From Verrucomicrobium sp. (GTDB lineage: Bacteria; Verrucomicrobiota; Verrucomicrobiia; Methylacidiphilales; GAS474): a stretch of 64,000 nucleotides of DNA. How positions within the stretch are numbered: position 1 is the stretch's first letter; the number at the start of each line of letters is the position of its first letter. A program made the position numbers and the translations under genes. The notes under the pieces are model-generated. The model made no database searches and had not been told where the DNA came from. It worked only from the letters and a program-made list of their open reading frames with translations. Positions 16,073 to 37,595 of this stretch are shown in pieces. The stretch covers positions 62,001-126,000 of the forward strand of contig JAPWJX010000005.1 of NCBI GenBank assembly GCA_028283855.1, read 5' to 3'.

Positions 16073-16087
16073 GGGAAAATTTTACCC
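16073..16087. promoter_or_regulatory. GGGAA-N5-TTCCC-type dyad A, upstream of flgB
   Basis: GGGAAAATTTTACCC, one mismatch to the dyad GGGAA-N5-TTCCC. Centre at about -136 from the predicted sigma-54 start. One of five such sites found only at the two flagellar sigma-54 promoters in this window. Confidence 0.6.
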
Positions 16088-16097
16088 CTCCCAAATT

Positions 16098-16112
16098 GGG
16101 AAAAAAGTTCCC
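16098..16112. promoter_or_regulatory. GGGAA-N5-TTCCC dyad B, upstream of flgB
   Basis: GGGAAAAAAGTTCCC, a perfect dyad centred at about -111, 25 bp after site A. Followed by CCCTTTGCC, which also occurs between sites D and E before flgF. Likely an enhancer site for a sigma-54 activator. Confidence 0.65.
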
Positions 16113-16188
16113 CTTTGCCTGGGGCGGCAAAAAGCTCCTAATTTGTAAGTAGCTTATAGCAAGTTAGTTGAGTTCGACTTTAAGAGGG

Positions 16189-16205
16189 GTGGCATAACGC
16201 TTGCT
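16189..16205 (+). promoter_or_regulatory. Sigma-54 promoter of the first flagellar operon
   Basis: TGGCATAACGCTTGCT: GG at 16191-16192 and GC at 16203-16204 with exactly 10 bases between, and TTGCT at the -12 side as in the consensus. Predicted start at about 16216, just before flgB. Confidence 0.88.
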
Positions 16206-16242
16206 AAATACCCTGGCGATGACCAGTGGTATCGAGAAGCTC

Positions 16243-16623
16243 ATGAATGAGCCCACCTTGGCGAGCCTGAAGCTTACCCTTCAGGAAGCCTCTTTGCGCC
16301 ATGACGCGCTGGCCAGCAACGTGGCCAACGTCAATACCCCCGGGTATCACCGCGTCGACGTTGCTTCCTCTTTCGCCTCCAGCCTTAACACGGCTCTCCA
16401 CCAGATCGACAAGGGGGAAACCCCGACGGATATCCCCAAGGGGACGGTTTCCGTGGCCGACGTGCAGAACCCCGCCCGTTACGACGGCAATACGGTCAAC
16501 CTGGATCAGGAAATGACCGAACTGATGAAGAACCAAAGCGACTTCGATTTTTCCGCCCGCATGTTGGCCCTGCACTACAGCCGGGTGAAGCAGGCGATCG
16601 GCGGCGGCACGAGCGGTTCCTAA
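16243..16623 (+). CDS. flgB: Flagellar proximal rod protein FlgB
   Basis: 126 residues from the ATG at 16243, which puts the family block ASNVANVNTPGYHRVDV at the usual distance from the N-terminus. An ATG at 16219 would add 8 residues and lies at about +4 of the sigma-54 transcript. The C-terminal coiled segment YSRVKQAIGG is normal. FlgB forms part of the proximal rod in the periplasm and is exported by the flagellar type III system without a cleaved signal. First gene of the long flagellar operon. Confidence 0.95.
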   Translation: MNEPTLASLKLTLQEASLRHDALASNVANVNTPGYHRVDVASSFASSLNTALHQIDKGETPTDIPKGTVSVADVQNPARYDGNTVNLDQEMTELMKNQSDFDFSARMLALHYSRVKQAIGGGTSGS

Positions 16624-16636
16624 CTCCTAGCACCTC

Positions 16637-17068
16637 ATGGCAAACCTAATTCCGGCTATCGACGTCAGCGGCAGCGCCCTCCAGGCGGAGCGGACCCGGT
16701 TGGAAATCGTCGCGGGCAACATCGGCAACGCGCAGACGACCCGCGGCCCGGACGGCAAGGCCTACCAGCGCAAGGAAGTCGTCTTCGAGACGGTCGCCAA
16801 CCAGAACGGCGTCCCGGCCGCCCCCGGCCAGCAGATCGGCGGCGTGAAGGTGGCCAAGATCGTCGACGATCCCTCTCCCGGCCAGAAGCTTTACATGCCC
16901 GGCCATCCGCACGCCGACGCCCAGGGCTTCGTCACCATGCCGAACGTGAACGTCGTCGATGAGATGGTCGACATGATGACCGCCAGCCGCTCCTTCGAGG
17001 CCAATCTCCAGGTCATCAAGACCGGGCGCGACATGGTCAACCGCTCCATCGCCATCGCCGAAGCTTAA
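16637..17068 (+). CDS. flgC: Flagellar proximal rod protein FlgC
   Basis: 143 residues, standard length. The rod motif appears as IVAGNIGNAQTTRGPDG with the FlgC-specific insert KAYQRKEVVFETV, and the C-terminus has the conserved NVNVVDEMVDMMTASRSFEANLQV and MVNRSIAIAEA blocks. It polymerises with FlgB and FlgF on the FliE adaptor. It lies 13 bases after flgB and 10 before fliE, within one transcript. Confidence 0.97.
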   Translation: MANLIPAIDVSGSALQAERTRLEIVAGNIGNAQTTRGPDGKAYQRKEVVFETVANQNGVPAAPGQQIGGVKVAKIVDDPSPGQKLYMPGHPHADAQGFVTMPNVNVVDEMVDMMTASRSFEANLQVIKTGRDMVNRSIAIAEA

Positions 17069-17078
17069 GCCGTAAGAT

Positions 17079-17495
17079 ATGGATCCCCTTTCCGCCGCCT
17101 CCGCCCTGACCTCCACGCCGCTCGACCCGGGCGCGGCGGTGGGCCAGGCCGGCACAGTCCTGCAGCAGGGCAACGGCGCCACCTTCGCCTTCAAGCTGCC
17201 CCAGGCCGCCGAGGCGCCGCAGGCTTCCGCCGCGGTCTCCGGGCCCAGCCAGGTTTACGCCGCCGGCGCCGAGCCGACGACCTACACGGGCATCGTGCAG
17301 GACATGATCCGGCAGACCAATCAGCTGGATCAAACGGCGGGCGCCAAGGTGCGCGACGTTCTTATGGGAGGGCCGACGACCGTCAATGACGCGATGGTCG
17401 CGGAGGAGGAGGCCGGAGTCGCCTTCAAGCTGGTGTCGCAGGTGCGGAACCAGGTCGTCAGCGCGTATCAGGAAGTCATGAGGATGCAGATTTAA
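17079..17495 (+). CDS. fliE: Flagellar hook-basal body complex protein FliE
   Basis: 138 residues, longer than the usual about 105 because of an Ala/Pro-rich N-terminal part. The conserved C-terminal block VNDAMVAEEEAGVAFKLVSQ followed by VRNQVVSAYQEVMRMQI identifies it. FliE joins the MS ring (FliF) to the rod and is an early export substrate. It lies between flgC and fliF as in most flagellar operons. Confidence 0.95.
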   Translation: MDPLSAASALTSTPLDPGAAVGQAGTVLQQGNGATFAFKLPQAAEAPQASAAVSGPSQVYAAGAEPTTYTGIVQDMIRQTNQLDQTAGAKVRDVLMGGPTTVNDAMVAEEEAGVAFKLVSQVRNQVVSAYQEVMRMQI

Positions 17496-17528
17496 TCCCG
17501 CATCATTTTTTCAAGGAGGAAGCCAACC

Positions 17529-19136
17529 ATGAACGAATTCTTTAAAAACCTGCAGCAAGTCTGGGCCGGAATCCCAGTCAGCCGCCGCATCCCCATCATC
17601 GCCACCACGGTCGCCATCATCGTCGGCCTGGGAATGGTCATCTCCTACGCGAACAAGCCGCACATGGACGTTCTCTTCAGCGGCATGCAGCCGAGCGAGG
17701 CGTCCAAGGTCGTCGAGTTCCTCAAGGGAAAGAAAATCCGTTACGAGTTGGAGGATAGCGGCGCCACCGTCATGGTCCCCAGCGCCAGCGTCTACGAGAC
17801 GCGCCTCGACCTGGCCGCCAACGGCATCCCCCGCGCCCCGGATACCGGCGGCGGCGTCGGCTTTGAGCTGTTCGACAAGCCCAGCTTCGGCATGCCGGAC
17901 TTCATGCAGAAGGCCAATTACTACCGCGCCATCCAGGGCGAGCTGGCCCGCACGATCAAGCAGTTCAACGACATCTCCGACGCCCGCGTCATGATCGTCG
18001 TGCCGGAAGAGCGGCTCTTCAGCAAGGACCGGAAGGAAGCCAAGGCCTCCGTCCTCATCCAGATGAAGCAGGGCCGCACGCTGGCCCCGGAACAGGTCGC
18101 CGCCATCCGCTTCCTGGTTTCCAACAGCGTCGAGGGGCTCCAGCCCAACCACGTCGCCATCGTCGACACCGCCGGCCGCTCCCTGGCCCCGGACGACGCG
18201 GGCAACGGCCTGGGCGCCCTCAGCAACACCCAGCTGAGCGTCCAGCGCCAGTATGAGGACCACCTGCGGGAGAAGGTGCAGTCGATGCTCGACCAGACCC
18301 TGGGCGTCGGCCAGTCCACCGTCCAGATCACCGCCGAGCTGAACTTCGACACCATCCAGCAGACCTCCGAGCGGTTCGACCCGAAGAGCGCCGTCGTCGG
18401 CGCCGAGCACACCACCAGCGAGGCGACCCACACCAAGACCCAGCAGGCCAACGCCACCGTCGGCTCCACCCCGAACACCACGGACGAGAGCAACAGCGGC
18501 GACAAGACCCAGACGGAAGCCTCCACGGAAAAGGCGACCGCCGAGAACCAATACGACATCAACCGCACAGTCGAGAGCCTGCAGAAGGCCGTCGGCGTGC
18601 CCACCCGCATCACCGCCGCCGTCTTCGTCAATGTGCGCCACAGCGGCACCGGCCCCACCTCCTCCGTCCGTCCCCGCACGCCGCAGGAGCTGCAGCAGCT
18701 AGACCAGATGGTGAAGGAGGCGATCGGCTTCACCCAGAGCGACGCGCGGAAAGACTCCGTCACCGTGCAGGAGATCGAGTTCGCCCCCGCCTTCGAGCAG
18801 GCGGAGCCCGCCACCACCGCCGCCGCCACCATCCTGGCCAACAAGAACCAGTGGATCCCCTGGGTCACCCAGGGCTGCCTGGGCGTCCTGGCCGTCGTGG
18901 TGCTGCTCTACCTGCGCAGCATCCTGCGCAGCTCCAGCATGTTCGAGAGCGCGGAGTCGGGCGAGTTCTCCTCCCTCCTCTCCCGCTACAAAAAGATGGC
19001 GGACGACGCCCTGGCCGAGATCGACCGGGAGAAAGCCCAGCCCAACGCCCTTTCCGTCGACGACCTGAGCAAGCTGATCCGCGACAACCCCGGCAACACC
19101 TCGCAGGCCCTCAAGGCCTGGATGATGCGCAACTAA
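17529..19136 (+). CDS. fliF: Flagellar MS-ring protein FliF
   Basis: 535 residues, normal size. Two membrane spans at about 20-40 and 440-462 bracket the periplasmic ring-building domains (early block DVLFSGMQPSEASKVVEFLK, later VQRQYEDHLREKVQSMLDQ). A low-complexity Ser/Thr linker lies near residues 290-340. The cytoplasmic tail LSVDDLSKLIRDNPG is the FliG-binding end. Its ATG follows a strong AGGAGG, one of few good ribosome sites in the window, in line with the high copy number needed for the ring. Confidence 0.98.
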   Translation: MNEFFKNLQQVWAGIPVSRRIPIIATTVAIIVGLGMVISYANKPHMDVLFSGMQPSEASKVVEFLKGKKIRYELEDSGATVMVPSASVYETRLDLAANGIPRAPDTGGGVGFELFDKPSFGMPDFMQKANYYRAIQGELARTIKQFNDISDARVMIVVPEERLFSKDRKEAKASVLIQMKQGRTLAPEQVAAIRFLVSNSVEGLQPNHVAIVDTAGRSLAPDDAGNGLGALSNTQLSVQRQYEDHLREKVQSMLDQTLGVGQSTVQITAELNFDTIQQTSERFDPKSAVVGAEHTTSEATHTKTQQANATVGSTPNTTDESNSGDKTQTEASTEKATAENQYDINRTVESLQKAVGVPTRITAAVFVNVRHSGTGPTSSVRPRTPQELQQLDQMVKEAIGFTQSDARKDSVTVQEIEFAPAFEQAEPATTAAATILANKNQWIPWVTQGCLGVLAVVVLLYLRSILRSSSMFESAESGEFSSLLSRYKKMADDALAEIDREKAQPNALSVDDLSKLIRDNPGNTSQALKAWMMRN

Positions 19137-19151
19137 CCACGGAGCACCCCT

Positions 19152-20237
19152 ATGGCCACCGCTACCGAGACTCCCGCAGCCCCGAAGCAGCTCAACAGCC
19201 CCGGAGGAGGAGGAAAATCCGCCGAGGAAGCCCTGCGCAGCTGGTCGAAAAAGCAGCGCCTGGCCGGCCTCCTGGTCGTCCTGGGGAAGGAGCTGGCCGC
19301 CCAGATTCTCAACGAGTTCGACGAGCGCGACGTCGAGGAAGTCACCACGGAGATGGCCCGCATCGACTTCATTTCGATGGACATGCAGCGCGCCCTTCTC
19401 AAGGAATTCACCTCCGTCACCGTCGACGCGGTGGCCTCCGCCGCGGGCGGCCCGCAGTTCGCCAAGGACGTGCTGGAGCGCTCCATCGGCACCTTTAAGG
19501 CCAACGAGCTGATCAACCGCATCGCCCCCAACAAGGCGCGCACCGTCGACAGCAGCGTGCTGCGGGACATCCAGCCCCGCCAGCTGATCAACCTCCTGCG
19601 CAAGGAGCAGATCCAGACCTGGGCGCTGGTCCTCTCCTACCTCGATCCCGCCCGCTGCGCGGAGGTCCTCTCCCTCCTTAACACCGATTTCCGCACCGAC
19701 GTGGTCGAGCGTATCGCCACCATGGAGCCGACCTCGGCCGAAGTGGTGGAACAGATCCTCAATCACATCAAGCGCCGCGTGGCGATGAAGAGCACCGTTT
19801 CCGTCACCAGCTCCGGCGGCGCCCGCATCCTGGCGGACGTCATCAACGCCCTGGACGACAACGTTTCCAAGCAGCTCCTCACCGGCCTGGAGGAGCGCAA
19901 TCCCGATCTGGCGAAAAACATCCAAAAGCTCCTCTTCGTCTTCGAGGACATCGCCGACATGGACAAGCAGACCCTGGCCCGCATCCTGCGGGAGGTCGAC
20001 TACCACCAGCTGGCCATCGCCCTCAAGACCGCCTCGGAACGCCTCCGCAGCACCGTGCTGGGCGGCCTCTCCAAGCGCGCCGCGGAAGGCCTTCAGGAAG
20101 AAATCCAGTTCATGCCCCCCGTCCGCCTCACGGAGGTGGAGGAGGCGCAGCAGAAGATCATCGACGTTGTCCGCCAGTTGGAAGCCAGCGGCGAAATCAC
20201 CATCAGCAAGGGCGGCGGACGCCGCGAGCTGGTCTAA
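19152..20237 (+). CDS. fliG: Flagellar motor switch protein FliG
   Basis: 361 residues. An extra N-terminal Pro/Ala/Gly stretch precedes the FliF-binding domain. Middle and C-terminal armadillo-like domains follow; the C-terminal torque helix is kept as KRAAEGLQEEIQFMPPVRL and TEVEEAQQKIIDVVRQLEAS. FliG transmits torque from the MotA stator and links the MS ring to FliM. It starts 15 bases after fliF and is followed by fliH, the classic order. Confidence 0.98.
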   Translation: MATATETPAAPKQLNSPGGGGKSAEEALRSWSKKQRLAGLLVVLGKELAAQILNEFDERDVEEVTTEMARIDFISMDMQRALLKEFTSVTVDAVASAAGGPQFAKDVLERSIGTFKANELINRIAPNKARTVDSSVLRDIQPRQLINLLRKEQIQTWALVLSYLDPARCAEVLSLLNTDFRTDVVERIATMEPTSAEVVEQILNHIKRRVAMKSTVSVTSSGGARILADVINALDDNVSKQLLTGLEERNPDLAKNIQKLLFVFEDIADMDKQTLARILREVDYHQLAIALKTASERLRSTVLGGLSKRAAEGLQEEIQFMPPVRLTEVEEAQQKIIDVVRQLEASGEITISKGGGRRELV

Positions 20238-20255
20238 AGCCGCCCTCTCCCTCCG

Positions 20256-20900
20256 ATGAAATCCTTCCAGGTCCAGATTCCCGCGCGCGTCGACCGCCTC
20301 ACGGTCCGCCGCCGCGTTCTGGCGCCCGCTCCGGTCCTGCCGGAGGGGGAAGGGGAGGAGGGCGCCGAGGCCGCGCCCGCGCCGGAAGTGGTCGCCTCGG
20401 AAGAGACCCTTTACGACGGCAGCTATGACGCCGGCCTCCGCGAGGGGCGCCGCCGCGCCCTGCAGGAGATGGCCGCGGCCCGCGCCGCCGACCAGAAGGA
20501 GATGCAGGCCTCCCTCCGCCAGTTCGACTTGGTGCTGCAAAAGCTCCTGGAAGTGGCGGAGAAGAATCTTCCCGAGCTGCTCCTGGCCGCCCTGGGCCGC
20601 GTTTTCCGCGAACACTCCTTCACTCATGAGGAGATGGCTGCCGAGGTTTCCGCCCTGGTGCGGGAAGTCGGCCAGGCCCAGGCGATCTCGATCGAAGCCT
20701 CCCAAGAGGAGATCGGCATCCTGGAGCGCCGTTTGGACAAGCTCGGGCTGGCTCTCCATCACGGCCGTGTCCAATGGCGCGCCAATCCCACCCTCGGCAA
20801 GGGGGAATACGTTTTGCAGACCGACCTCGGCATGGTTGACGGCCGCCGCCTGTCTAAGCTGGCCCAGATCCGCCTGGCTCTTGAGGAGGAGGCCGCCTGA
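20256..20900 (+). CDS. fliH: Flagellar assembly protein FliH
   Basis: 214 residues. The glycine-patterned helix of FliH is only partly visible (YDGSYDAGLREGRRRALQEM), followed by a long coiled coil and an ATPase-stator-like C-terminal domain (FREHSFTHEEMAAEVSALVR...YVLQTDLGMVDGRRLSKLAQ). It holds and regulates the FliI ATPase at the export gate. The stop overlaps the fliI ATG by one base (TGATG), consistent with coupled synthesis of the complex. Confidence 0.92.
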   Translation: MKSFQVQIPARVDRLTVRRRVLAPAPVLPEGEGEEGAEAAPAPEVVASEETLYDGSYDAGLREGRRRALQEMAAARAADQKEMQASLRQFDLVLQKLLEVAEKNLPELLLAALGRVFREHSFTHEEMAAEVSALVREVGQAQAISIEASQEEIGILERRLDKLGLALHHGRVQWRANPTLGKGEYVLQTDLGMVDGRRLSKLAQIRLALEEEAA

Positions 20901-22291
20901 TGCATCCCGGGCTGAATTATCCCGGGCTGGTCGCCAAGACCCGGCGCGCCCTTTCCCAGATCCGCCCCGTCGGCCTCGTCGGGCGCGTGGCCAAGGTCGT
21001 CGGCCTGACCGTCGAGTCCCAGGGGCCGGCCGCCGCGCTGGGGGAAGCTTGCTGGATCTACTGCGGCGCCTCGCAAAAGCGCCGTTTGGCGGAAGTCGTC
21101 GGTTTCCGCGAGGGGCGCATTCTCCTTATGCCCTGGGAGGGGCTGGAAGGGATCGGGATCGGCGACGGCGTCCAGTCCACCGGCGCGCCGCCGCAGATCC
21201 CCGTCGGCCCGTCCGTCCTGGGGCGCATCCTCGATCCCCTGGGCCGCCCCATTGACGATCTGGGCCCGCTGCCGGCGGAGACGCCGACGGCTCCGCTTAT
21301 CCGCAGCGTGCCGCCCCCGGCCCGCCGTCCCCGCATCAGCAACATCTTCCAGACCGGCGTCCGCGCCATCGACTCCTTCGCCACGGCGGGCGCGGGGCAG
21401 CGCCTGGGCATCTTCGCGGGCAGCGGCGTGGGCAAGAGCACGCTCCTGGGCATGATCTGCCGCTACGCCAGCGCGGACATCAACGTCATCGCCCTCATCG
21501 GCGAGCGCGGCCGCGAGGTGCTCGAGTTCGTCGAGCGGGACCTGGGTCCCGAGGCGCTCAAGCGCAGCGTCATCGTCGTCGCCACCTCGGACCAGCCCGC
21601 CCTGGCCCGTATCAAGGCCGCCTTCACCGCCAATACGATCGCCGCCCACTTCCGCGCGCAGGGGAAGCACGTCCTCCTCATGATGGATTCGCTCACCCGC
21701 CTGGCTATGGCCCAGCGGGAAATCGGCCTGGCCGTCGGTGAGCCCCCGGCCACCCGCGGCTATCCGCCCTCCGTCTTCGGCCTCATGCCGATCCTGTTGG
21801 AGCAGGCGGGCTGCCTGGATCAAGGCATCATTACCGGCTTCTACACCGTCCTGACGGAAGGCGACGACTGGAACGACCCCATCAGCGATTGCGCCCGCTC
21901 CATTCTGGATGGCCACCTCCTCCTGACCCGCCGTCTGGCCTCGGAGAACCACTATCCGGCCATCGACGTCCTGGAGAGCCTCAGCCGCCTCCAGAGCAAC
22001 CTGATCGGCGCGCCCCAGCGGGAGCTCATTGGCCGCGCCCGGCACATCCTGGCCGTGCAGCGGCAATACCGGGAACTGGTGGAAATCGGCGCCTACACCC
22101 CGGGCAGCAACACCCAATTGGACCACGCCTTGGCCCTCTATCCCCAGCTCGTCCAGTTCCTCCGCCAGTCGGTGGAGGAGCCGGGCACCGTCAACGGCGC
22201 CTTTGCGGTGCTGGAGCGCATCCTCAACAGCCAGGGAGGAGGCGCGGCGCCCGTCGTTTCCTCTTCCTCCGCCGCCCTGGCCCGCAACTAA
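20900..22291 (+). CDS. fliI: Flagellum-specific ATPase FliI
   Basis: 463 residues. Walker A IFAGSGVGKSTLLGM and Walker B VLLMMDSLTRLAMAQREI are intact, with the F1-beta-like ERGREVLEFVERDLG and the export-ATPase GEPPATRGYPPSVFGLMP blocks. It energises delivery of flagellar substrates to the export gate in the cytoplasm, with FliH and FliJ on either side in the operon. Confidence 0.98.
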   Translation: MHPGLNYPGLVAKTRRALSQIRPVGLVGRVAKVVGLTVESQGPAAALGEACWIYCGASQKRRLAEVVGFREGRILLMPWEGLEGIGIGDGVQSTGAPPQIPVGPSVLGRILDPLGRPIDDLGPLPAETPTAPLIRSVPPPARRPRISNIFQTGVRAIDSFATAGAGQRLGIFAGSGVGKSTLLGMICRYASADINVIALIGERGREVLEFVERDLGPEALKRSVIVVATSDQPALARIKAAFTANTIAAHFRAQGKHVLLMMDSLTRLAMAQREIGLAVGEPPATRGYPPSVFGLMPILLEQAGCLDQGIITGFYTVLTEGDDWNDPISDCARSILDGHLLLTRRLASENHYPAIDVLESLSRLQSNLIGAPQRELIGRARHILAVQRQYRELVEIGAYTPGSNTQLDHALALYPQLVQFLRQSVEEPGTVNGAFAVLERILNSQGGGAAPVVSSSSAALARN

Positions 22292-22297
22292 GAGCCG

Positions 22298-22738
22298 ATG
22301 AAGCACCGCTCCCTCGAAATCCTCCACCGCCTGCGGGAATACGACCTCGAACAGGAGGAAGGAAAACTCGTCCAACGCCAGCGGGAGGAAAAGGCCAAGG
22401 AGCAGGACTGCTACCGTTCCCTGGATGTGTTGCAGGGCAGCTACCACCACAGCGTGGACAACGCCCAGGTGCATGACTATTCCCGCCGCGACGGCTGCGT
22501 GCGGGAGGCCGGGCTGCGCCACAACTACGACCTGCGCCAATACGGCATGGCCCAGATCGCCCGCAACGAGCAGGTGCAGGAAACCCTCAAGGCGAAGACC
22601 CGCGCCGACATGATCGCCAAGGTGCTCGAAAAGCGCCGCGAGCAGGACCGCGTCGAGGCCGACCTGCGCGACCGCCGCGAGATGGACGACGTGGCGCAGA
22701 ACCAGTTCATCTATTCCCGCAACGAGCCCCTTTTCTAG
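22298..22738 (+). CDS. fliJ: FliJ-like flagellar export coiled-coil protein
   Basis: 146 residues, almost entirely charged alpha helix, directly after fliI. Length, helical character and place match FliJ, the central stalk of the export ATPase; sequence itself is too divergent to be diagnostic. Clusters such as LHRLREYDLEQEEGKLVQRQ support an antiparallel coiled coil. The assignment rests mostly on synteny. Confidence 0.75.
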   Translation: MKHRSLEILHRLREYDLEQEEGKLVQRQREEKAKEQDCYRSLDVLQGSYHHSVDNAQVHDYSRRDGCVREAGLRHNYDLRQYGMAQIARNEQVQETLKAKTRADMIAKVLEKRREQDRVEADLRDRREMDDVAQNQFIYSRNEPLF

Positions 22739-22751
22739 ACTCTTCTTCTAC

Positions 22752-23405
22752 ATGCCCTCCCTCATCATCTCCCTGGCGGCCGGAATCGGCCTTCTCTTCG
22801 GCCTGCTCGGCGGCACCTTCGTCGCCGCCGGCAAGGTTAAGCTCCCCCCGCGCCCGGCTCCCCATGCGGTCAAGCCTGTCTCCATGGCGACTTCCTCCGC
22901 CAAGTCTTTCGACGATTTCACCAAGATCGCCGCGGAGCTCGATTCCTGGCGCCGGGAACTGACGGAGCGGAACAACAAGGCCCTCCTCCTCGACGCCGAG
23001 CTGGCCAAGCGGGAGCAGCTCCTCCAGGCGGAGCGCGGCGCGCTGGACCAGGAGCGCAGCCGCCTGGAGCACGTGCAGAAGGACATGGAAGATCGTCTTA
23101 TCAAAATCAAACAGAACGAGACTCCGCGCCTTCAGGAGCTGGCCGATCTCTATAGCACGATGAAGCCGGACGACGCGGTGTCCCTCCTGCGCGTCCTTCC
23201 GCCGGAGCAGGCGACGAAGGTCGTCACCGTCATGAAGCAGAAGACGGCGGCCAAGCTCCTCTCCAATTGGATCGAAAAGTATCCCGGCGACAAGGCCCTC
23301 GTCGCCCAGATCACCAACGACCTGGTCCGCACCATCGACCAGCCCTCCTCTTCCACCGACCTTTCCAGCAATAACCCGAGCTCAAGCTCTCCCGCCAACC
23401 CTTAA
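22752..23405 (+). CDS. MotE-like membrane coiled-coil protein with MgtE-N type domain
   Basis: 217 residues: an N-terminal membrane span (about 4-26), coiled coil (about 55-120), then a compact domain LADLYSTMKPDDAVSLLRVLPPEQ...VVTVMKQKTAAKLLSNW that resembles the MgtE-N/FliG-like fold of MotE, and a Ser-rich tail. In other bacteria MotE chaperones the stator protein MotC. Between fliJ and fliK this is a common place for such genes. A role in motor or export assembly is inferred. Confidence 0.75.
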   Translation: MPSLIISLAAGIGLLFGLLGGTFVAAGKVKLPPRPAPHAVKPVSMATSSAKSFDDFTKIAAELDSWRRELTERNNKALLLDAELAKREQLLQAERGALDQERSRLEHVQKDMEDRLIKIKQNETPRLQELADLYSTMKPDDAVSLLRVLPPEQATKVVTVMKQKTAAKLLSNWIEKYPGDKALVAQITNDLVRTIDQPSSSTDLSSNNPSSSSPANP

Positions 23406-23419
23406 CCCCTTCATTCTTT

Positions 23420-28628: not shown

Positions 28629-28632
28629 GGCT

Positions 28633-28890: not shown

Positions 28891-28903
28891 GCGGCCCGCG
28901 CCC

Positions 28904-30287: not shown

Positions 30288-30302
30288 GCGCGCGCCCGGC
30301 AA

Positions 30303-31079
30303 ATGGAACTTTTCGTCAACCCGATCGCCCTCTGGCTTATCGCCTCGCGGCTGAGCGGCTGGATGCTCCTGTCCCCGGGTTTCGCGGAGATCAACACGCC
30401 GCAGCTCACCCGCGCGGCCATGATTCTCTGGCTTAGTTACCTGCTGTTGCCGTTGGTCGGTCCCATCACGCCGCAGGCCCACCTTTATACCATGCCGGAT
30501 ATCATCGTGGCCGTGGTGGGGGAGTTCATCATCGGCGCGGGCTACGGACTGGTGCTCCGCCTCATCTTCGGCGCCGTCCAGTTCGGCGGCGTGCTGTTGG
30601 ACAATGAGCTGGGTTTTCTCTACGCCCAGCAGGTCAATCCCGCCCTGCCGGTCAGCGGCGGCATTTTCAGCCGCCTGTTCCTCCTCATGGCCATTCTCTA
30701 TTTCTGGACCTTCGACTACTTCCGCATCGTCATGGCGGCGATCCACCAGAGCTTCATCCTCATTCCCCTGGGAGTTATGGACCGGCCGCTGTTCGACTTC
30801 GCCATGCTGGTCAAGCTGGGCGCGGCCCTTTTCGCCGGGGGACTCACCTTCGCCGCGCCCATCATGGCCCTCATGTTCTTCGTCACGATTACCGTCGGCT
30901 TCCTGGCCCGCACCGTGCAGGGGATGAACATCTTCTCGGACGTCTTCGTCTTTAAGGTCGCCGTGGGCCTTATCGGCATCCTGGTTTTCCTGCCCCTTCT
31001 TTTCTTCATCATGAAGGTGCAGATGGAGAAGATCATCCCGATGTCGTCGGAATACTTCAAATTCCTCAGCCCTTCCTGA
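30303..31079 (+). CDS. fliR: Flagellar export gate protein FliR
   Basis: 258 residues, about six membrane spans. Family features: LSGWMLLSPGFAEINTPQLT near the N-terminus, then GEFIIGAGYGLVLRLIFGAV with the Q.GG motif, and a C-terminal amphipathic tail. One copy completes the export pore and contacts FlhB, whose gene follows after one base. Confidence 0.97.
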   Translation: MELFVNPIALWLIASRLSGWMLLSPGFAEINTPQLTRAAMILWLSYLLLPLVGPITPQAHLYTMPDIIVAVVGEFIIGAGYGLVLRLIFGAVQFGGVLLDNELGFLYAQQVNPALPVSGGIFSRLFLLMAILYFWTFDYFRIVMAAIHQSFILIPLGVMDRPLFDFAMLVKLGAALFAGGLTFAAPIMALMFFVTITVGFLARTVQGMNIFSDVFVFKVAVGLIGILVFLPLLFFIMKVQMEKIIPMSSEYFKFLSPS

Positions 31080-31080
31080 C

Positions 31081-32175
31081 ATGCCCCAGGACGACCTGAA
31101 AAATCTGCCGGCCTCCGCCAAAAAGCGCGCCAAGCTCCGCGAAAGCGGCATGGTCGTGCGCAGCCATGATCTGGCCACCACGGTCATCGTGGCCACCGGC
31201 CTGTTCTCCCTCATGTATTTCGGCTCCCAGATCGGGATCGGGCTGGCTGACTTCATGCGGGAGTGTTTCACGGAGCTGGGGAAGCCGGCCGGGCACACCT
31301 CCGCCACCACGCCCCTTTATCCGATGCTGAGCAATCACCTGCTCCTGGTTCTCATCTTGTTCATGGGGGGCATGGCCCTGGTGGCCGTGCTGGCCAACAT
31401 GGTCCAGAGCGGCCCCCTGTGGATCGCCGACAAGCTGTTGGAGCAGGGCCGCGGCCGCCTCAACCCCCTCAAGGGGATCAAAAATCTCTTTTCCCTCCGC
31501 AAGCTCGTCGCCACCTCCCAGTCCGTTATCAAGCTCCTGCTCATCGCCTCCTTCGCCTACGCGGCGGTGCGGGAGCTGTCGGAAGCGCCGGTCTTCAGCC
31601 GCCCCGTCTCCGTGCAGGAGTTGGGGGCCTTTTTCCTGCAGGCCTGCTGGGCCGTCGGCTGGCGGGTCATTCTGGCCCTGCTTATCCTGGGAGTGATCGA
31701 CTATCTCTACCAGAGGTGGCAGTATGAAAAGGACAACCGCATGAGCTTCCAGGACGTAAAGGACGAGGTGAAGCAGTCCGAGGGCTCCCCGGAAATCCGG
31801 GCGCGCCGCCGCGGCATCATGCGCCGGATGCGCTCCCTCCGCCGCCAGCTGGAAGACATGGCGGACGCCACCATCGTCGTCAACAACCCGACCCACTACT
31901 CCGTGGCCCTCCGCTACGTCCGCGGCCTCACGCCCACGCCTATCGTCGTCGCCAAGGGGACGCGCCGCAACGCCCTCCGCATCCGGGAACGCGCCGCCGA
32001 TTTGGGCATCCCCATGCTGGAGAACGTCCCCCTGGCGCAGGGCCTCTACAAGCACGGGGAAGTCGGGGAGCCGATCCCGCCTCTTTATTACCAAGCCGTG
32101 GCCCAGGTTCTGGCCGACCTCTTCCGCCGCGGCTACCGCCCCACATCCGGGGAAGGGCAGGGGAGCCCCAACTGA
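31081..32175 (+). CDS. flhB: Flagellar export switch protein FlhB
   Basis: 364 residues: four membrane spans, then the cytoplasmic domain with the autocleavage site NPTH in TIVVNNPTHYSVALRY (about residue 270). N-terminal LPASAKKRAKLRESGMVVRS is typical. FlhB, with FliK, switches export from rod/hook to filament substrates. Autocleavage residues are intact, so switching should work. Confidence 0.98.
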   Translation: MPQDDLKNLPASAKKRAKLRESGMVVRSHDLATTVIVATGLFSLMYFGSQIGIGLADFMRECFTELGKPAGHTSATTPLYPMLSNHLLLVLILFMGGMALVAVLANMVQSGPLWIADKLLEQGRGRLNPLKGIKNLFSLRKLVATSQSVIKLLLIASFAYAAVRELSEAPVFSRPVSVQELGAFFLQACWAVGWRVILALLILGVIDYLYQRWQYEKDNRMSFQDVKDEVKQSEGSPEIRARRRGIMRRMRSLRRQLEDMADATIVVNNPTHYSVALRYVRGLTPTPIVVAKGTRRNALRIRERAADLGIPMLENVPLAQGLYKHGEVGEPIPPLYYQAVAQVLADLFRRGYRPTSGEGQGSPN

Positions 32176-32183
32176 CGCCCTAG

Positions 32184-34271
32184 ATGAATTCCAACCTTCT
32201 CACCCGGTTCCTGCAGCGCGGCGACGTGATCTTCAGCATCGCCCTGCTCGGCATCGTCGTCATCCTGGTGCTGCCGCTGCCGCCGGTCCTCATCGACGTC
32301 TTCCTGACCCTGAGCATCACCCTCTCGGTCATCATCATCCTTACCGTTGCCTTCCTTAAGGACCCCACGGAGTTCTTCGTCTTTCCCACGATCCTGCTCT
32401 TCACCACCCTCTTTCGGCTGGGGTTGAACGTGGCCACCACCCGCTCCATCCTTATCAACGGGGAGGCGGGCAAGCTCATCTCCGCCTTCGGCGACTTTGG
32501 CGTGCAGGGAAACCCGATCGTAGGGCTCATCGTCTTCATCATTTTGACGGCGATCAACTTCATGGTCATCACCAAGGGCGCGGGCCGCGTGGCGGAAGTC
32601 TCCGCACGCTTCACCTTGGACGCCATGCCGGGCAAGCAGATGGCCATCGATGCCGACCTTAACGCGGGCATCATCTCGGAGAAGGACGCCCGGGAACGCC
32701 GCTCGGCCATTCAGAAGGAGGCCAGCTTCTACGGCGCGATGGACGGCGCCAGCAAGTTCGTCAGCGGCGACGCCATCGCGGGCATCTTCATCACCCTGGT
32801 GAACCTCATCGGCGGCTTCGCCGTGGGCATGCTGCAGATGAACCTCAGCGCCTCGGACTCCATCCACAAGTTCTCCCTCCTCTCCATCGGCGACGGCCTG
32901 GTGACGCAGATCCCCGCCCTCATCACCTCCACTGCCGCCGGTATCCTGGTCACCCGCTCCAGCTCCAACTCGGCGCTCGGCGGGGACGTCTCCCGGCAGC
33001 TCTTCAACAGCTCCATGGTGCTGCGCATCACCGCGATGGCCCTCATCTTCTTCGCCTTCATCCCCGGCTTCCCCTCCGGGGCCATGGGCGGCGTGGCGGG
33101 CGCCCTCCTCCTCATCTCCTTCTTCTTCCTTCCCCGGAACAAGGCGGAGGCGAACAAGCTTCAGGAAGAGATGAAAGCCCGCGAGGTCAAGGAAAAGGAA
33201 GCCGCCGCTGCCAAGGACCAGCGGCCGGAAGTCCTCCTCAAGCTCGATCCCCTGGCGCTGGAGATCGGCCTGGACCTCCTGCCTTTGGTGCAGGGGCAAA
33301 TGAAGAGCATGCTCGACCGCATCGGCCTCCTGCGCCGGAACATTTCCCAGGAACTGGGCATCATCATCCCTTCCATCTCCGTGCGGGACAATTCCGCCCT
33401 GCCTTCCCACAGCTACGCCGTCCTGGTCCGCGGGCACGAGGTGGCGGGAGGCGAGCTTTTCATCGGCCAATACCTGGCCATGGGCGTGGGCACCCCGCAG
33501 CGGCCCCTGCGCGGCAAGGTGACCACGGAACCGGCCTTCGGCCTGCCGGCCACCTGGATCGCGGAGGGCGACCGCCGGGAGGCCGAGCGCCTGGGCCACG
33601 CCGTCATCGATCCTCTCTCCGTCCTCATCACCCACGTCGGCGAGACCCTGCGCCGTTCCGCCGCGGAAATCTTCACCCGCCAGGACACCCAGAACCTCCT
33701 GGACGCCATGAAGGAGACCCACGCCGCCGTTTTGTCCGAAATGAAGACCCTGCAGATCAACGTCGGCACGGTGCACCGCGTCCTGCAAAGCCTCCTGCGG
33801 GAGGGCCTCTCGATCCGGGAGCTGGGCGTCATCCTGGAAAAGCTGTGCGACCAGGTGGCCTTCACGAAGAACCCGGACGAGCTGAGCGAGGCCTGCCGCC
33901 GCGTCCTGGCCATGGAAATCAGCCGCCATTGCGAAATCGAAAAGAACAAGATCCTCTGCGTCACCATGCACCCGGAGCTGGAGCAGCACGTCGCCAAGGG
34001 CATCCGCCAAAGCCAGCAGGAGATCAACCTGGTCCTCGACCCCGGCCTGGCCCGCTACCTGCACGACCACATCCAGCGCGGCGTGGCGGAAATGGGCAAG
34101 CGGGGGAAAACCCCCCTCATGCTGACCTCCCCCACCGTCCGCCTGGGGCTCAAGCGCTTCTACGCGGACAGCTTTCCTCTCCTGCGCGTGGTGGCTTATA
34201 ATGAAATTCCGGCCAAATACGAGATCGAGCCTGTTTACAATATCCCGCCGCAGAATATGGTGGCGGCATAG
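32184..34271 (+). CDS. flhA: Flagellar export protein FlhA
   Basis: 695 residues. Eight N-terminal membrane spans with the FHIPEP-type signature NFMVITKGAGRVAEVSARF followed by TLDAMPGKQMAIDADLN, and a large cytoplasmic substrate-binding domain from about 345 on. FlhA is the proton-driven export channel and chaperone dock. It starts 8 bases after flhB; the usual downstream flhF-flhG pair is replaced by one small membrane protein gene. Confidence 0.98.
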   Translation: MNSNLLTRFLQRGDVIFSIALLGIVVILVLPLPPVLIDVFLTLSITLSVIIILTVAFLKDPTEFFVFPTILLFTTLFRLGLNVATTRSILINGEAGKLISAFGDFGVQGNPIVGLIVFIILTAINFMVITKGAGRVAEVSARFTLDAMPGKQMAIDADLNAGIISEKDARERRSAIQKEASFYGAMDGASKFVSGDAIAGIFITLVNLIGGFAVGMLQMNLSASDSIHKFSLLSIGDGLVTQIPALITSTAAGILVTRSSSNSALGGDVSRQLFNSSMVLRITAMALIFFAFIPGFPSGAMGGVAGALLLISFFFLPRNKAEANKLQEEMKAREVKEKEAAAAKDQRPEVLLKLDPLALEIGLDLLPLVQGQMKSMLDRIGLLRRNISQELGIIIPSISVRDNSALPSHSYAVLVRGHEVAGGELFIGQYLAMGVGTPQRPLRGKVTTEPAFGLPATWIAEGDRREAERLGHAVIDPLSVLITHVGETLRRSAAEIFTRQDTQNLLDAMKETHAAVLSEMKTLQINVGTVHRVLQSLLREGLSIRELGVILEKLCDQVAFTKNPDELSEACRRVLAMEISRHCEIEKNKILCVTMHPELEQHVAKGIRQSQQEINLVLDPGLARYLHDHIQRGVAEMGKRGKTPLMLTSPTVRLGLKRFYADSFPLLRVVAYNEIPAKYEIEPVYNIPPQNMVAA

Positions 34272-34283
34272 CCCTTTCAAAAA

Positions 34284-34604
34284 ATGTTCAAACTCCTGAC
34301 CCAAACCAAGCTCCCGACGATCATCAACAAAGTGGTCGTCGTGATCGGCCTGTCCGGCATGATCGTCGGCCTCTTCCTGTCCTACATCAACGGGCAGGAA
34401 CTGGGATGGTCGATGTTTTGCGCCGCCGGCCTGGGCCTCCTTTTTGCGGCCAGCGCGAAATATATCGTCGTCAAATTCATGCGCGCCTGGATGGAGGGGA
34501 AACTGGAACAGGCATCCCGCGAGCGGGACGAGGCCAAGAAGCAGGCCGAGGCGCTCCGCCTCCAGGAAAAAGAGGCCAAGGCCGAAGCCAAGAACCAAGT
34601 CTAG
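34284..34604 (+). CDS. Small membrane protein with charged C-terminal helix, between flhA and fliA
   Basis: 106 residues: two hydrophobic segments (about 17-35 and 42-62), then a highly charged helix (EQASRERDEAKKQAEALRLQ). I do not recognise it. It occupies the place where flhF and flhG are common, but resembles neither (no GTPase or ATPase motif). Its position inside the operon, 12 bases after flhA and before fliA, suggests a flagellar role, perhaps at the membrane near the export gate. Confidence 0.65.
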   Translation: MFKLLTQTKLPTIINKVVVVIGLSGMIVGLFLSYINGQELGWSMFCAAGLGLLFAASAKYIVVKFMRAWMEGKLEQASRERDEAKKQAEALRLQEKEAKAEAKNQV

Positions 34605-34616
34605 GACTAGCCGTTT

Positions 34617-35420
34617 TTGAAATCTAAGTCCAAACCCCAGCCCTCGGTCCCTCCGGCGCCCGCTGCGCCGGCTCAAGGGGCCGTGCCCCAGGCGAAGATA
34701 GAGACGGAGGCGGAGCGCGACGCCCTCATCCGCTCCATGATTCCGCTGGTTCACCACATCGTGGCGCGGATGGGGCTCTTCCTTCCGCCCCACATCGCTC
34801 AGGAAGACCTAGTCAGCGCGGGCGTCATCGGCCTGATCGATGCCGTGGAACGCTACGACGCCTCCCGCGGCTCCAGCCTGAAGACCTTTTGCTCCTTTCG
34901 CATCCGGGGAGAGGTCCTCGACGAATTGCGCCGCTTGGACTGGGTGCCCCGCTCCGTCCACAGGGAGGCCCGGATGTTGGAAGGGGCGCAGGAGGCCATC
35001 GCCCAGCGGCTCGGCCGGGAACCGACGGAGGACGAGCTTTGCCAGGAGCTGCACATCGGTAGACAGCAGCTCACCGAGCTGCTGGACCGGATCAAGCCCA
35101 CCACCTACTTTTCCCTCCAGGAACCGATCTACGAGGGGGAGGGGGGAGACACCCTTTCCCATGAGGATATTCTGGCCGACGAAAGCGCCCAAACGCCATT
35201 TGCAAGCTTGCTAAATGAGGAAGATAAACTCATCTTACGCAAAACGATGGGAAAACTTCCCGCCCAGCAACTTCAGGTCCTAAGCTTTTATTACATGGAA
35301 AACCTGCGCCTGAAGGAAATCGCCGAATTGCTGGGGATCACCGAGTCCCGCGTTTCGCAGGTTCACACCTTGGCCATCACCCGGTTGCGCGCCGTCTTCC
35401 TGCGCGAGAGAAAGCGCTAG
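34617..35420 (+). CDS. fliA: RNA polymerase sigma-28 factor FliA
   Basis: 267 residues from a TTG at 34617; the next in-frame ATG (34738) would remove part of region 2. Region 2 reads SMIPLVHHIVARMGLFLPPH then EDLVSAGVIGLIDAVERYDA, and region 4 VLSFYYMENLRLKEIAELLG ITESRVSQVHTLAI. A Pro/Ala-rich N-terminal extension is unusual. FliA drives late genes such as flagellin; no clear FliA promoter and no flagellin lies in this window, so its targets are elsewhere. No FlgM was recognised nearby. Confidence 0.95.
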   Translation: MKSKSKPQPSVPPAPAAPAQGAVPQAKIETEAERDALIRSMIPLVHHIVARMGLFLPPHIAQEDLVSAGVIGLIDAVERYDASRGSSLKTFCSFRIRGEVLDELRRLDWVPRSVHREARMLEGAQEAIAQRLGREPTEDELCQELHIGRQQLTELLDRIKPTTYFSLQEPIYEGEGGDTLSHEDILADESAQTPFASLLNEEDKLILRKTMGKLPAQQLQVLSFYYMENLRLKEIAELLGITESRVSQVHTLAITRLRAVFLRERKR

Positions 35421-35424
35421 GCCT

Positions 35425-36285
35425 ATGCTCCTTCTCATCGGTTGGGCCATCGTCTTCGGCTCGGTGCTTGGCGGCTTCATGTACAATGGCGGCCACATCG
35501 AGTCGCTTCTCCACCCCGGCGAATGGATCATCATCGTCGGCGTCATGATCGGCTTCCTCGTCGGCTCCAGCCCGGGCTCCGTGCTGAAGCTGATGATCGC
35601 CAAGATCAAGCAGGCCGTCGGAGCGCCGCCCTACACCCAGCAGCGCTACATGGACCTGTGCAAGGCCCTCTACGAGCTGTTCATGGTCGCGCGCGAGCAG
35701 GGCGTCGTCGGCATCGAGGAACACGTCATCAACCCCTCCACCAGCTCCGTCTTCTCCAAGTATCCCAGCTTCCTGAACGACCACCACGCCGTCTCCTTCC
35801 TGCAGGACGCCCTGCGCCCCCTCATCGAAGGCCGCATGAAGCCGGAGCAGCTCCGCGCCTCCCTCAACGAAGACCTGGAGCGCCTTTCCATCCACTCGGA
35901 AGCGCCCATCATGATCCTCACCAAGGTGGCGGACGCGCTGCCGGGCGTCGGCATCGTCGCGGCGGTGCTCGGCATCGTCGTCACCATGGGCTTCATCGCG
36001 GGCGAGAAGGCGAAGATCGGCGAGAAAGTCGCCGCGGCGCTCGTCGGCACCTTCCTGGGCCTTCTCATCAGCTACGGCCTCTTCCAGCCCATGATCCTCA
36101 AGCTGGAATTCATCAATGAGGACGAGCTGGCCTACTACCAGGTCATGTGCAACATGATCGTCAGCTACGCCACCGGCTCCCCGCCGGTCATGGCCGCCGA
36201 GGCCGGCCGCCGCACCATCCCGGCGGACCGCCAGCCCGCGGGCGACGCCTTTGAAACCGAGCTGAAGGCCCTCAAGAAGGCCTGA
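35425..36285 (+). CDS. motA: Flagellar motor stator protein MotA
   Basis: 286 residues, four membrane spans. Conserved parts: LHPGEWIIIVGVMIGFLVGS, the cytoplasmic loop with charged residues, and TKVADALPGVGIVAAVLGIV with the essential Pro, then KVAAALVGTFLGLLISYGLF. With MotB it forms the ion-conducting stator. It starts 4 bases after fliA, so stator synthesis is tied to the early operon. Confidence 0.97.
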   Translation: MLLLIGWAIVFGSVLGGFMYNGGHIESLLHPGEWIIIVGVMIGFLVGSSPGSVLKLMIAKIKQAVGAPPYTQQRYMDLCKALYELFMVAREQGVVGIEEHVINPSTSSVFSKYPSFLNDHHAVSFLQDALRPLIEGRMKPEQLRASLNEDLERLSIHSEAPIMILTKVADALPGVGIVAAVLGIVVTMGFIAGEKAKIGEKVAAALVGTFLGLLISYGLFQPMILKLEFINEDELAYYQVMCNMIVSYATGSPPVMAAEAGRRTIPADRQPAGDAFETELKALKKA

Positions 36286-36309
36286 TCCTCATGACCGGCC
36301 CCCTCCGCC

Positions 36310-37065
36310 ATGTCTAAGAAAGGTGGACACCACGGCGGTTCCTGGAAAGTCGCCTACGCCGACTTCGTCACCTCCATGTTCGCGCTCTTCCTGGTCCTCT
36401 GGATCATCGGGGCGGACGAGGAAACCCGCCGCGCCGTGGAAGACTACTTCCAGGGCCGGAAAATCCACGTCACCAACGGCTCCCGCTCCGTCACGAAGTG
36501 GGAGGAGAACTCCACCTTCCACACCATCCCGCAGGACGCCCCCAGCCAGGACCTCCAGTCGATCAACGAACTGACCCAGGCCCTGGAGCAAATCCGCCAG
36601 CAGCTCAAGAACAGCAGCGATCCCGGCGACGACCAAATCCGCTTCGACTTCACCTCCGACGGCGTCCGCATCAACGTCATCGACAAGTCCAAGCGCCCTT
36701 TCTTCGACCCCAACAGCTCCAATCTGACCCCTTTCGGCTCCTTCGTCCTGCAAACCATCGGCTGGCAGCTGGAGCGGCTCCCCGTCCAGGTAGAGGTGGA
36801 AGGGCACACGGAAAACAACCCCAACAACGGTGACCCGATGCAGCCCTGGACCCTTTCCTCCGAAAGAGCCCTTTCCTCCGAAAAGGCCCTGACGGACAGC
36901 GGGGTGAAGCCGGACAAATTCTTCCGCGTGGCGGGGAAGGGGGCCACCGATCCCCTCGACGCCGCCCACCCGGAGAGCGAAAACAACCGGCGGATTACCA
37001 TTGTGGTCCGCCCCGCGAAGGGGGAGGATCTCTCCTCCTTCCGCCAAAAGATGATGCAGCCATGA
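36310..37065 (+). CDS. motB: Flagellar motor stator protein MotB
   Basis: 251 residues. One membrane span with the ion-carrying Asp in KVAYADFVTSMFALFLVLW, then a plug/linker and a C-terminal OmpA-like peptidoglycan-binding domain (NLTPFGSFVLQTIGWQLERL ... VEVEGHTENNP, ENNRRITIVV). Ala after the Asp motif gives no firm clue to H+ or Na+. Its stop overlaps the next ATG by 4 bases. Confidence 0.97.
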   Translation: MSKKGGHHGGSWKVAYADFVTSMFALFLVLWIIGADEETRRAVEDYFQGRKIHVTNGSRSVTKWEENSTFHTIPQDAPSQDLQSINELTQALEQIRQQLKNSSDPGDDQIRFDFTSDGVRINVIDKSKRPFFDPNSSNLTPFGSFVLQTIGWQLERLPVQVEVEGHTENNPNNGDPMQPWTLSSERALSSEKALTDSGVKPDKFFRVAGKGATDPLDAAHPESENNRRITIVVRPAKGEDLSSFRQKMMQP

Positions 37066-37418
37066 ATTTCCTGAACCCGGAAGAACAGAAGCGCGTGGCG
37101 ATCCGCAAGGCAGCCGATGTGGCTCCTCCGCCCGCCGCGGCTCCCGCTCCTGCCGCCCCGGGCGCCAAAGGAGCTGCCGCCCCGGCCAAGCCGGCAGCCA
37201 AACCCGGCGCAACCGCTCCCGCTAAGCCGGGCGCTCCGGCTGGAGCGGCCCCCACCGTCGTCAACGCCGTCGTGAAGCCGAAGCCGGCTCCCCAAGTCCA
37301 GGTCCTTCAGGTGGAAGACGGAGTTTTCGAAGTTCATTTCACCTGCTCCTGCGGCGAGCAGTACGTCATCCGGTGCGACTCCGTCGCCAAGCCCGGGGAA
37401 GCGCCTAAGGCTTCGTAG
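37062..37418 (+). CDS. Small Ala/Pro-rich protein with CxC...C motif, coupled to motB
   Basis: 118 residues: N-terminal charged stretch, a low-complexity Ala/Pro/Lys middle (about 20-75), and a compact C-terminal part VLQVEDGVFEVHFTCSCGEQ, YVIRCDSVAK with three Cys that could bind metal. No signal peptide. I do not recognise it. The 4-base overlap with motB indicates coupled translation, so a role in stator assembly or regulation is possible. It is the last gene of the first flagellar unit. Confidence 0.65.
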   Translation: MNFLNPEEQKRVAIRKAADVAPPPAAAPAPAAPGAKGAAAPAKPAAKPGATAPAKPGAPAGAAPTVVNAVVKPKPAPQVQVLQVEDGVFEVHFTCSCGEQYVIRCDSVAKPGEAPKAS

Positions 37419-37420
37419 GC

Positions 37421-37435
37421 AGGAAAATTCTTCCC
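37421..37435. promoter_or_regulatory. GGGAA-N5-TTCCC-type dyad C, upstream of flgF
   Basis: AGGAAAATTCTTCCC, one mismatch, centre at about -177 from the predicted sigma-54 start of flgF. Confidence 0.5.
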
Positions 37436-37454
37436 AGAAAATTTGGGCGGGCGA

Positions 37455-37469
37455 AGGAAAAATACTCCC
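37455..37469. promoter_or_regulatory. GGGAA-N5-TTCCC-type dyad D, upstream of flgF
   Basis: AGGAAAAATACTCCC, two mismatches, centre at about -143, 26 bp before site E; followed by CCTTTGCC as is site B before flgB. Confidence 0.5.
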
Positions 37470-37480
37470 CTTTGCCGAGT

Positions 37481-37495
37481 GGGAAAATAATTCCC
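37481..37495. promoter_or_regulatory. GGGAA-N5-TTCCC dyad E, upstream of flgF
   Basis: GGGAAAATAATTCCC, a perfect dyad centred at about -117. Its distance to the promoter matches site B before flgB (-111). Confidence 0.65.
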
Positions 37496-37516
37496 TCCTC
37501 TCTTGGGAAATCTTTT

Positions 37517-37535
37517 AGAGAGGGTTTCTCTCTTT
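37517..37535 (+). terminator. Weak terminator of the first flagellar unit
   Basis: AGAGAG-GGTTT-CTCTCT hairpin (37517-37533) then TT. AT-poor T-run, so probably partial. It lies between the activator sites and the flgF promoter. Confidence 0.4.
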
Positions 37536-37547
37536 AAACAAGCTTCC

Positions 37548-37568
37548 GGCAGCGACTTTTTCGCTGCC
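37548..37568. other. Perfect inverted repeat just upstream of the flgF sigma-54 promoter
   Basis: GGCAGCGA-CTTTT-TCGCTGCC: an 8-bp perfect stem with a 5-base loop at about -57 to -37, ending 9 bases before the -24 element. It could be a second terminator of the preceding unit (no T-run follows) or a binding site for a protein acting between enhancer and promoter. Confidence 0.5.
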
Positions 37569-37577
37569 GTGAACCAC

Positions 37578-37595
37578 TTGGCATGAACTGTGCAA
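37578..37595 (+). promoter_or_regulatory. Sigma-54 promoter of the second flagellar unit
   Basis: TTGGCATGAACTGTGCAA: GG at 37580-37581 and GC at 37592-37593, exactly 10 bases apart. Predicted start at about 37605, only four bases before the flgF ATG at 37609, so the message should be leaderless or nearly so. Confidence 0.88.

Follow-up and report, generated by a model that had tools for sequence, protein, structure and literature searches.

Tandem dyads upstream of flagellar sigma-54 promoters as putative enhancers, and a candidate activator, in Methylacidiphilales and related Verrucomicrobiota

In the genome of a Verrucomicrobium sp. of the order Methylacidiphilales (G000 in our numbering; a 2.56-Mb assembly), tandem palindromic DNA elements (dyads) were found upstream of the sigma-54-type promoters of the flagellar genes flgB and flgF, both located in a stretch of 64,000 nucleotides, hereafter the window (G000:C5:62001-126000; contig JAPWJX010000005.1). 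With a probability that we put at about 0.85, these dyads serve as tandem upstream enhancers bound by one flagellar sigma-54 activator, a response regulator encoded on another contig (C3), which would drive flgB, flgF and one flagellin gene. This reading builds on several observations: the sites and promoters themselves and how far they are conserved, the fact that the activator gene co-occurs and is linked with flgB, and covariation between the half-site and the helix-turn-helix (HTH) of the activator.

The pattern TGGCAYN6TGCW has only two matches in the window (0.38 expected), at 16190-16205 (TGGCATAACGCTTGCT) and 37579-37594 (TGGCATGAACTGTGCA), both on the forward strand, as are the flgB and flgF dyads and genes and the sigma-factor gene described below. 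The first gene after the former is a flgB-like rod gene (Flg_bb_rod; 16219-16623, ATG at 16219), and this promoter overlaps a longer open reading frame (ORF) start at 16201; the first gene after the latter is a flgF-like rod gene with FlgE/F/G domains (37609-38400). Upstream of flgB, the main dyad (16098-16112, GGGAAAAAAGTTCCC) is an exact GGGAA-N5-TTCCC centred 85 nt before the T of TGGC, and the upstream dyad (16073-16087, GGGAAAATTTTACCC) is centred 110 nt before it; the inner 13-mer of the upstream dyad, GGAAAATTTTACC, matches all eight fixed letters of GGNAANNNTTNCC. Upstream of flgF, the main dyad (37481-37495, GGGAAAATAATTCCC) is again exact and is centred 91 nt before the T, followed at 117 nt by a middle dyad (37455-37469, AGGAAAAATACTCCC) and at 151 nt by a distal one (37421-37435, AGGAAAATTCTTCCC). 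When the T of TGGC is placed at -26, as is conventional, the centres fall at about -111 and -136 for flgB and at about -117, -143 and -177 for flgF. A first-pass annotation of the window had listed these two perfect and three near copies, with the best site at about -111 to -117 and a second site 25-26 bp upstream; positions and spacing proved correct, with the qualification that the copy at 37455-37469 differs at two positions from GGGAA-N5-TTCCC. A 13-bp dyad, GGAAA-N3 with TTTCC/TTCC, describes the conserved core more aptly.

The exact pattern GGGAA-N5-TTCCC occurs in the window only at the two main sites, against 0.19 expected from shuffles, and 2 of 100 shuffles reach two copies. With up to one mismatch, five sites are found (3.85 expected), and with up to two, 53 (46.6 expected); since the last count is at chance level, significance rests on the exact sites, the A-rich core and the clustering. 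The fifth one-mismatch copy (20559-20573), absent from the first-pass annotation, lies inside a FliH-like ORF (20256-20900) whose Pfam FliH score, 22.3 bits, is below the family cut-off of 24.1. The dyads had been said to occur only before flgB and flgF, and this is true of the exact copies in the window but not of the genome, which has 19 exact copies (versus 7 of a reversed control pattern). In both regions CCTTTGCC adjoins a site (at 16112 and 37469), but it was rejected as a shared element, as its count in the window is near chance (6 versus 3.8 expected) and it is also not found beside the flagellin dyad.

A third combination of dyad and sigma-54 promoter exists at an unlinked flagellin gene, with the promoter TGGCACGACCGGTGCT at C9:228775 and the dyad GGGAAAATTATTCCC at C9:228650. 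Of the 19 exact genomic copies of GGGAA-N5-TTCCC, 16 were inspected; coding-like ORFs hold 11 of these, and the remaining five comprise the sites of flgB, flgF and the flagellin as well as C3:3995 and C3:1186077. The A-rich dyad RGGAAAANNNTTCCY has nine exact copies in the genome, four before the three flagellar promoters (flgB, flgF and flagellin) and five in coding-like ORFs. A genome scan for dyads near sigma-54 promoters, the check proposed at the outset, found 21 sigma-54-like sites, and only the three flagellar ones have a dyad of the A-rich, own type at -180 to -40. RpoN is present (PF04552, 197.6 bits, G000:C1:65908-66381).

Flagellin genes differ in this respect. Upstream regions were inspected for 24 of the 31 flagellin matches (L157 is without upstream DNA), and among these a good sigma-54 promoter stands together with a dyad only at L155 of G000 and L156 of G002. 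The flagellins L158 and L182 showed poor sigma-54 promoter matches, and L158 has no significant dyad (p = 0.35). The upstream regions of the tandem flagellin genes L166 and L174 (G000:C3:721427-723284) are without the combination of dyad and sigma-54 promoter; upstream of L166 stands TAAAGTCT-N12-GCCGATGT, which we take to be sigma-28-like. Away from the flagellins, a perfect eight-letter GGCAA-type dyad that lies 105 nt before another sigma-54-like site, L059 (G000:C3:1073455), was taken as probable coincidence; this dyad looks like a terminator, since a tRNA-Pro gene ends immediately before it and it forms part of an inverted repeat with a run of T behind it.

Sixty genomes, G000 included, were searched, and flgB was found in 11, flgF in 11 and flagellin in 10. 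A sigma-54-type promoter lies close upstream of flgB in all 11 genomes and of flgF in all 11. A matrix built from six sites of G000 was then applied to held-out relatives and compared with dinucleotide shuffles. The best site was significant (p < 0.05) upstream of flgB in 8 of 10 relatives, the misses being G015 (0.129) and G004 (0.081), and upstream of flgF in 5 of 10, where the misses range from 0.063 to 0.385 and all but one belong to the five genomes of family f9. The same matrix was run on the regions upstream of the activator genes described below, and a significant site came up in none of the 11 from other genera but in all 3 from the genus of G000. The dyads upstream of flgB and flgF, whose conservation in relatives was to be checked, are therefore kept, in 8/10 and 5/10 regions respectively: palindromic sites 80-200 bp before a GG-N10-GC promoter are retained in the relatives, clearly for flgB and more weakly for flgF. 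Apart from these 10 relatives' regions, G039 has a second flgB-like gene (L095, G039:C348) with a sigma-54-like promoter and no significant dyad (p = 0.35), perhaps part of a second flagellar set.

The class as a whole shows the pattern in a slightly different form. A search of 286 class genomes, each at least 85% complete, gave flgB in 71 (G181, among the 71, was not included). Altogether, 72 flgB regions were read (11 of the order, and 21 plus 40 of the class), of which 56 were testable; 15 had no TGGC[AT]N8GC close to the flgB match (though some of them have a looser promoter-like sequence), and one was not long enough. GGNAA-N3-TTNCC is perfect in 26 of the 56 regions (0.38 expected), or in 25 of 55 when G000 is set aside, and at least seven of its eight letters are matched in 48 of 56 (5.1 expected). 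Five permuted or reversed half-sites and the N2 spacing gave 0 each on the same regions, N4 gave 12 and N5 gave 3. When all dyads of the same shape with spacers of 0-11 were enumerated without bias, GGNAA-N3 was at the top with 26, followed by GGNAA-N4 with 12 and CGNCA-N5 with 5, the rest reaching at most 4; CGNCA-N5 is the top dyad shifted by one base, in the frame of a flanked CGGCAA dyad. The commonest half-site in the class is GGCAA (GGCAA-N3-TTGCC), and that of the lineage of G000 is mostly GGAAA. In a set of named genomes, which overlaps the 56 regions so that the two tests are not independent, the pattern is perfect at 21 of the 49 loci of Verrucomicrobiota that could be scored, and at least seven letters match at 39 of the 49, versus 0 of 4 testable loci in other phyla and 0 of 3 unassigned ones (few loci); the unassigned L338 is probably the same class member as G089, which lacks a dyad, because promoter and best match are identical. 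Across the wider class, the sites are phased at 10.5 bp (36 of them, R = 0.75, compared with 0.59 at 10 bp and 0.70 at 11 bp), these sites being not independent owing to shared ancestry.

Six genes in the genome have strong Sigma54_activat matches, and four ORFs of 842-893 amino acids have further weak partial matches, not counted here; all ten lie outside the window, and the earlier statement that no activator gene is in the window is thus borne out. The search for a sigma-54 activator gene with a DNA-binding domain gave its best candidate on another contig, at G000:C3:103908-105332. This protein (P0001, 474 amino acids) contains a receiver (PF00072), an AAA+ domain (PF00158) and a Fis-type HTH (PF02954), all above the cut-offs, and GAFTGA is present in its AAA+ domain. 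With this domain set, the GAFTGA motif and sigma-54 in the same genome, it is by its sequence an NtrC-type response regulator. Orthologues of at least 61% identity exist in all 11 flgB-bearing genomes among the 60 and in only one of the other 49 (G024). All 51 further class genomes have a match to it with an E-value of 1e-100 or better, the best matches of G087 and G260 falling outside the flagellar clade of the tree. In six of 62 genomes (G020, G010, G117, G244, G113 and G222) the best match adjoins flgB, upstream and on the same strand, with gaps of 199 to 679 bp between the matches (short ORFs in the gaps were left aside), and in 10 further genomes of the 62 it is within 25 kb of flgB. As many contigs are short, absence of such linkage says little. 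The dyads are likely to be paired with the C3 activator on the basis of this phylogeny and linkage.

The region before the activator gene itself was also inspected. A dyad with one mismatch (GGGACAATTCTTCCC, G000:C3:105354-105368, or L080:7355-7369, minus strand) lies 22-36 bp before the ATG of the C3 activator, and a sigma-54 promoter was not seen in this upstream region in G000; the dyad is possibly an autoregulatory site. In the other members of the genus, weaker dyads lie at 67 bp (G001) and 56 bp (G002), the best-scoring one of G002 being at 150 bp. Directly upstream of the activator gene is a gene for a TPR protein of 391 amino acids (Pfam; L080:7454-8629, minus strand), and a TPR-like gene precedes the activator in five of the seven loci checked (G000 by Pfam; G010, G020, G017 and G015 by eye).

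The half-site covaries with the HTH of the activator. For this comparison, 63 best-match activators (from 62 genomes and G024) were typed, with four not parsed. An INV turn is present in 14 of the 63, namely those of G024, G073, G089 and the order to which G000 belongs; 13 of these have NRNE or HRNE and one (G039) QRTE. HTH sequences of the NRT/NKT/NRA..ISI-like type are found in 45 of the 63, 34 of them exactly ISI. At base 3, the 28 half-sites of the INV type include 21 with A and 3 with C, whereas among the 66 of the ISI-like type 43 have C and 15 have A; of the 17 from genomes with untyped activators, 8 have C and 5 have A. Counted by genome, a top site with C at base 3 or with G at base 11 was seen for 2 of the 11 INV-type genomes (from 13 regions, G089 and G028 having no seven-letter site), for 25 of the 29 of the ISI-like type (from 32 regions) and for 5 of the 8 untyped ones. 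Fisher's test of half-site against HTH type gives p = 1e-6, a value that counts sites and not evolutionary events. The residues concerned presumably touch the DNA, as we take to follow from the Fis fold. Two exceptions, G113 and G227, have NRT-type activators and yet GGAAA on both sides, and G295 and G272, with INI and NRTQ, retain C or mixed sites, so that N alone does not make the switch.

On a quick tree, the INV type forms one clade of 16 rows (support 100 by the Shimodaira-Hasegawa-like approximate likelihood ratio test), sister (92) to 13 order-level paralogues, eight of them from genomes without flgB; most of these have an NRT/NKT..ISL HTH. Two of the 15 loci in the group of 49-53% identity (L142 and L146) were left out of the tree. 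This paralogous clade of mostly ISL-type activators (L138-L146 and L149-L154) is present in the order, also in genomes lacking flgB. The specificity probably switched from GGCAA to GGAAA together with the HTH change in the lineage of G000; since the switch is one event on the tree, the correlation is suggestive and not proof. A more tentative scenario, to which we give slightly less than an even chance, is that the flagellar activator of Methylacidiphilales arose by duplication, one copy keeping the ancestral-type NRT..ISL (also in genomes without flgB) and the other becoming the flagellar-specific NRNE..INV form, while the enhancers moved from GGCAA to GGAAA.

By the scheme that we favour, the response regulator would be activated by a signal, and its dimers would occupy the dyads, some 85-150 bp before the promoter, and assemble into an oligomer. 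Through a DNA loop the oligomer may then touch sigma-54 RNA polymerase, so that open complexes form at flgB, flgF and one flagellin. Such a layout of enhancers for a sigma-54 activator had been suggested for the two regions, and it gains support from the association with flagellar promoters, the conservation and the activator gene outside the window. Downstream of the flgB promoter is a gene for a factor of the sigma-70 family that has regions 2, 3 and 4 (34617-35420), taken as FliA/sigma-28-like. It is likely to be the next tier of a flagellar cascade, and would be co-transcribed with flgB if the operon extends this far; the flgB gene run would then yield a FliA-like sigma factor that switches on later genes, including the later flagellins.

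Several results weigh against this scheme. The flgF sites are weak in four of the five f9 genomes and in one of the three of f3, and the generic class pattern reaches at least seven of eight letters in only 4 of 11 flgF regions (1.7 expected), none of them perfect. The relatives share ancestry, and the p-values ignore kinship. In the class, the spacer-4 variant is also frequent (12/56), and G089 has no recognisable dyad despite its flgB, promoter and activator. In the lineage of G000, the sites are phased only weakly (17 sites, R = 0.48 at 10.5 bp, 0.53 at 10 bp and 0.16 at 11 bp). Moreover, because the genome has six strong activator genes, the pairing of the dyads with the C3 activator has to rest on phylogeny and linkage.

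The last point bears on the idea that the sites are enhancers for another of the six activators, for example that at G000:C5:38052 (L018), which has a receiver and a Fis-type HTH and lies on the contig of flgB some 40 kb away, closer to it in this genome than the C3 gene. This activator, the nearest on the contig, was our initial guess and was dropped: the C3 protein tracks flgB (11/11 of the genomes with it, 1/49 of those without) and adjoins it in some relatives, whereas the C5 protein and the other four are outside the flagellar clade on the quick tree. The long branches there leave the placement unsure, and the distribution was searched for the C3 activator only; we nevertheless consider a different activator improbable. 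It is more improbable still that the dyads bind a repressor or a nucleoid protein that modulates these promoters, and that the activator uses other sites or needs no enhancer, as is reported of Helicobacter FlgR. The dyad before the activator's own gene, where no sigma-54 promoter is visible in G000, would fit such a role, repression being as likely as activation at that place, but the other dyads stand in tandem 40-180 bp upstream of sigma-54 promoters, keep the 10.5-bp phase in the class and covary with the activator HTH. Chance, by which A-rich intergenic stretches of a GC-rich genome would yield GGGAA...TTCCC, is the least credible origin. It draws on the two-mismatch count of the window and on the 11 of 16 inspected exact copies in coding-like ORFs, and both the held-out relatives and the class-wide enumeration speak against it; by these counts a chance origin is refuted for flgB across the class and stays open for single weak sites, such as flgF in some relatives.

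The favoured scheme of one flagellar activator and its tandem dyads can be compared with known systems. The first-pass annotation recognised no known activator site in the dyad. The lineage of G000 has mostly GGAAA, but GGCAA-N3-TTGCC of the class resembles what we take to be the ftr element of Caulobacter FlbD, a palindrome with a GGCAA-like core, so that the site is not wholly unlike known ones. With the FlbD equivalog the C3 protein reaches 379.8 bits (cut-off 750), and the half-site of its lineage is mostly GGAAA and not GGCAA, the presumed ftr form that most of the class has. FlbD works with a partner, FliX. NtrC, which shares the domain order of the C3 activator, uses tandem dyads about 100 bp upstream, and its site, TGCACC-N5-GGTGCA, differs from the dyads here; the ntrC equivalog gives 414.2 bits (cut-off 558.6). 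The FlgR model gives 323.1 bits (cut-off 750). For FlrC and FleR, neither of which has a model in the NCBIfam list returned, the comparison showed AAA+ similarity of the C3 activator to FlrC (4qhs, among the PDB sequence matches, E = 1.1e-77); the best PDB match is the NtrC-family regulator 4l4u (1.1e-100). By curated cut-offs, then, the C3 protein is none of FlbD, FlgR and NtrC, and the general scheme as predicted here is that of FlbD, FlrC, FleR and FlgR.

In excerpts of two papers, FlbD of Caulobacter crescentus activates sigma-54-dependent flagellar promoters and binds ftr elements, through one of which it represses the early promoter fliF (PMC3930126, PMC3096577). In excerpts of another, FlrC (Vibrio), FleR (Pseudomonas) and FlgR (Campylobacter), with the partner kinases FlrB, FleS and FlgS, are response-regulator activators of sigma-54-dependent rod and hook genes, and V. 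cholerae has a putative sigma-54 site upstream of flgF (PMC7064773). For flagellar gene activation in Verrucomicrobiota and Methylacidiphilum, the excerpts of the openly licensed literature searched describe neither an activator nor its sites (PMC12316311, PMC3162934, PMC6180460); a survey among them names, in its excerpted part, sigma-54 motility promoters in Opitutia and describes no enhancer sites (PMC12316311).

In short, the C3 protein, the dyads and the three promoters would constitute a candidate activator, its sites and a first regulon for the flagellar genes of the class. If the duplication scenario is true, a sigma-54 flagellar regulon has been rewired in nature by changes that can be named in both the protein and the DNA. 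The apparent joint change of the DNA-reading helix and its target may give a handle on the specificity residues in a large family of activators.

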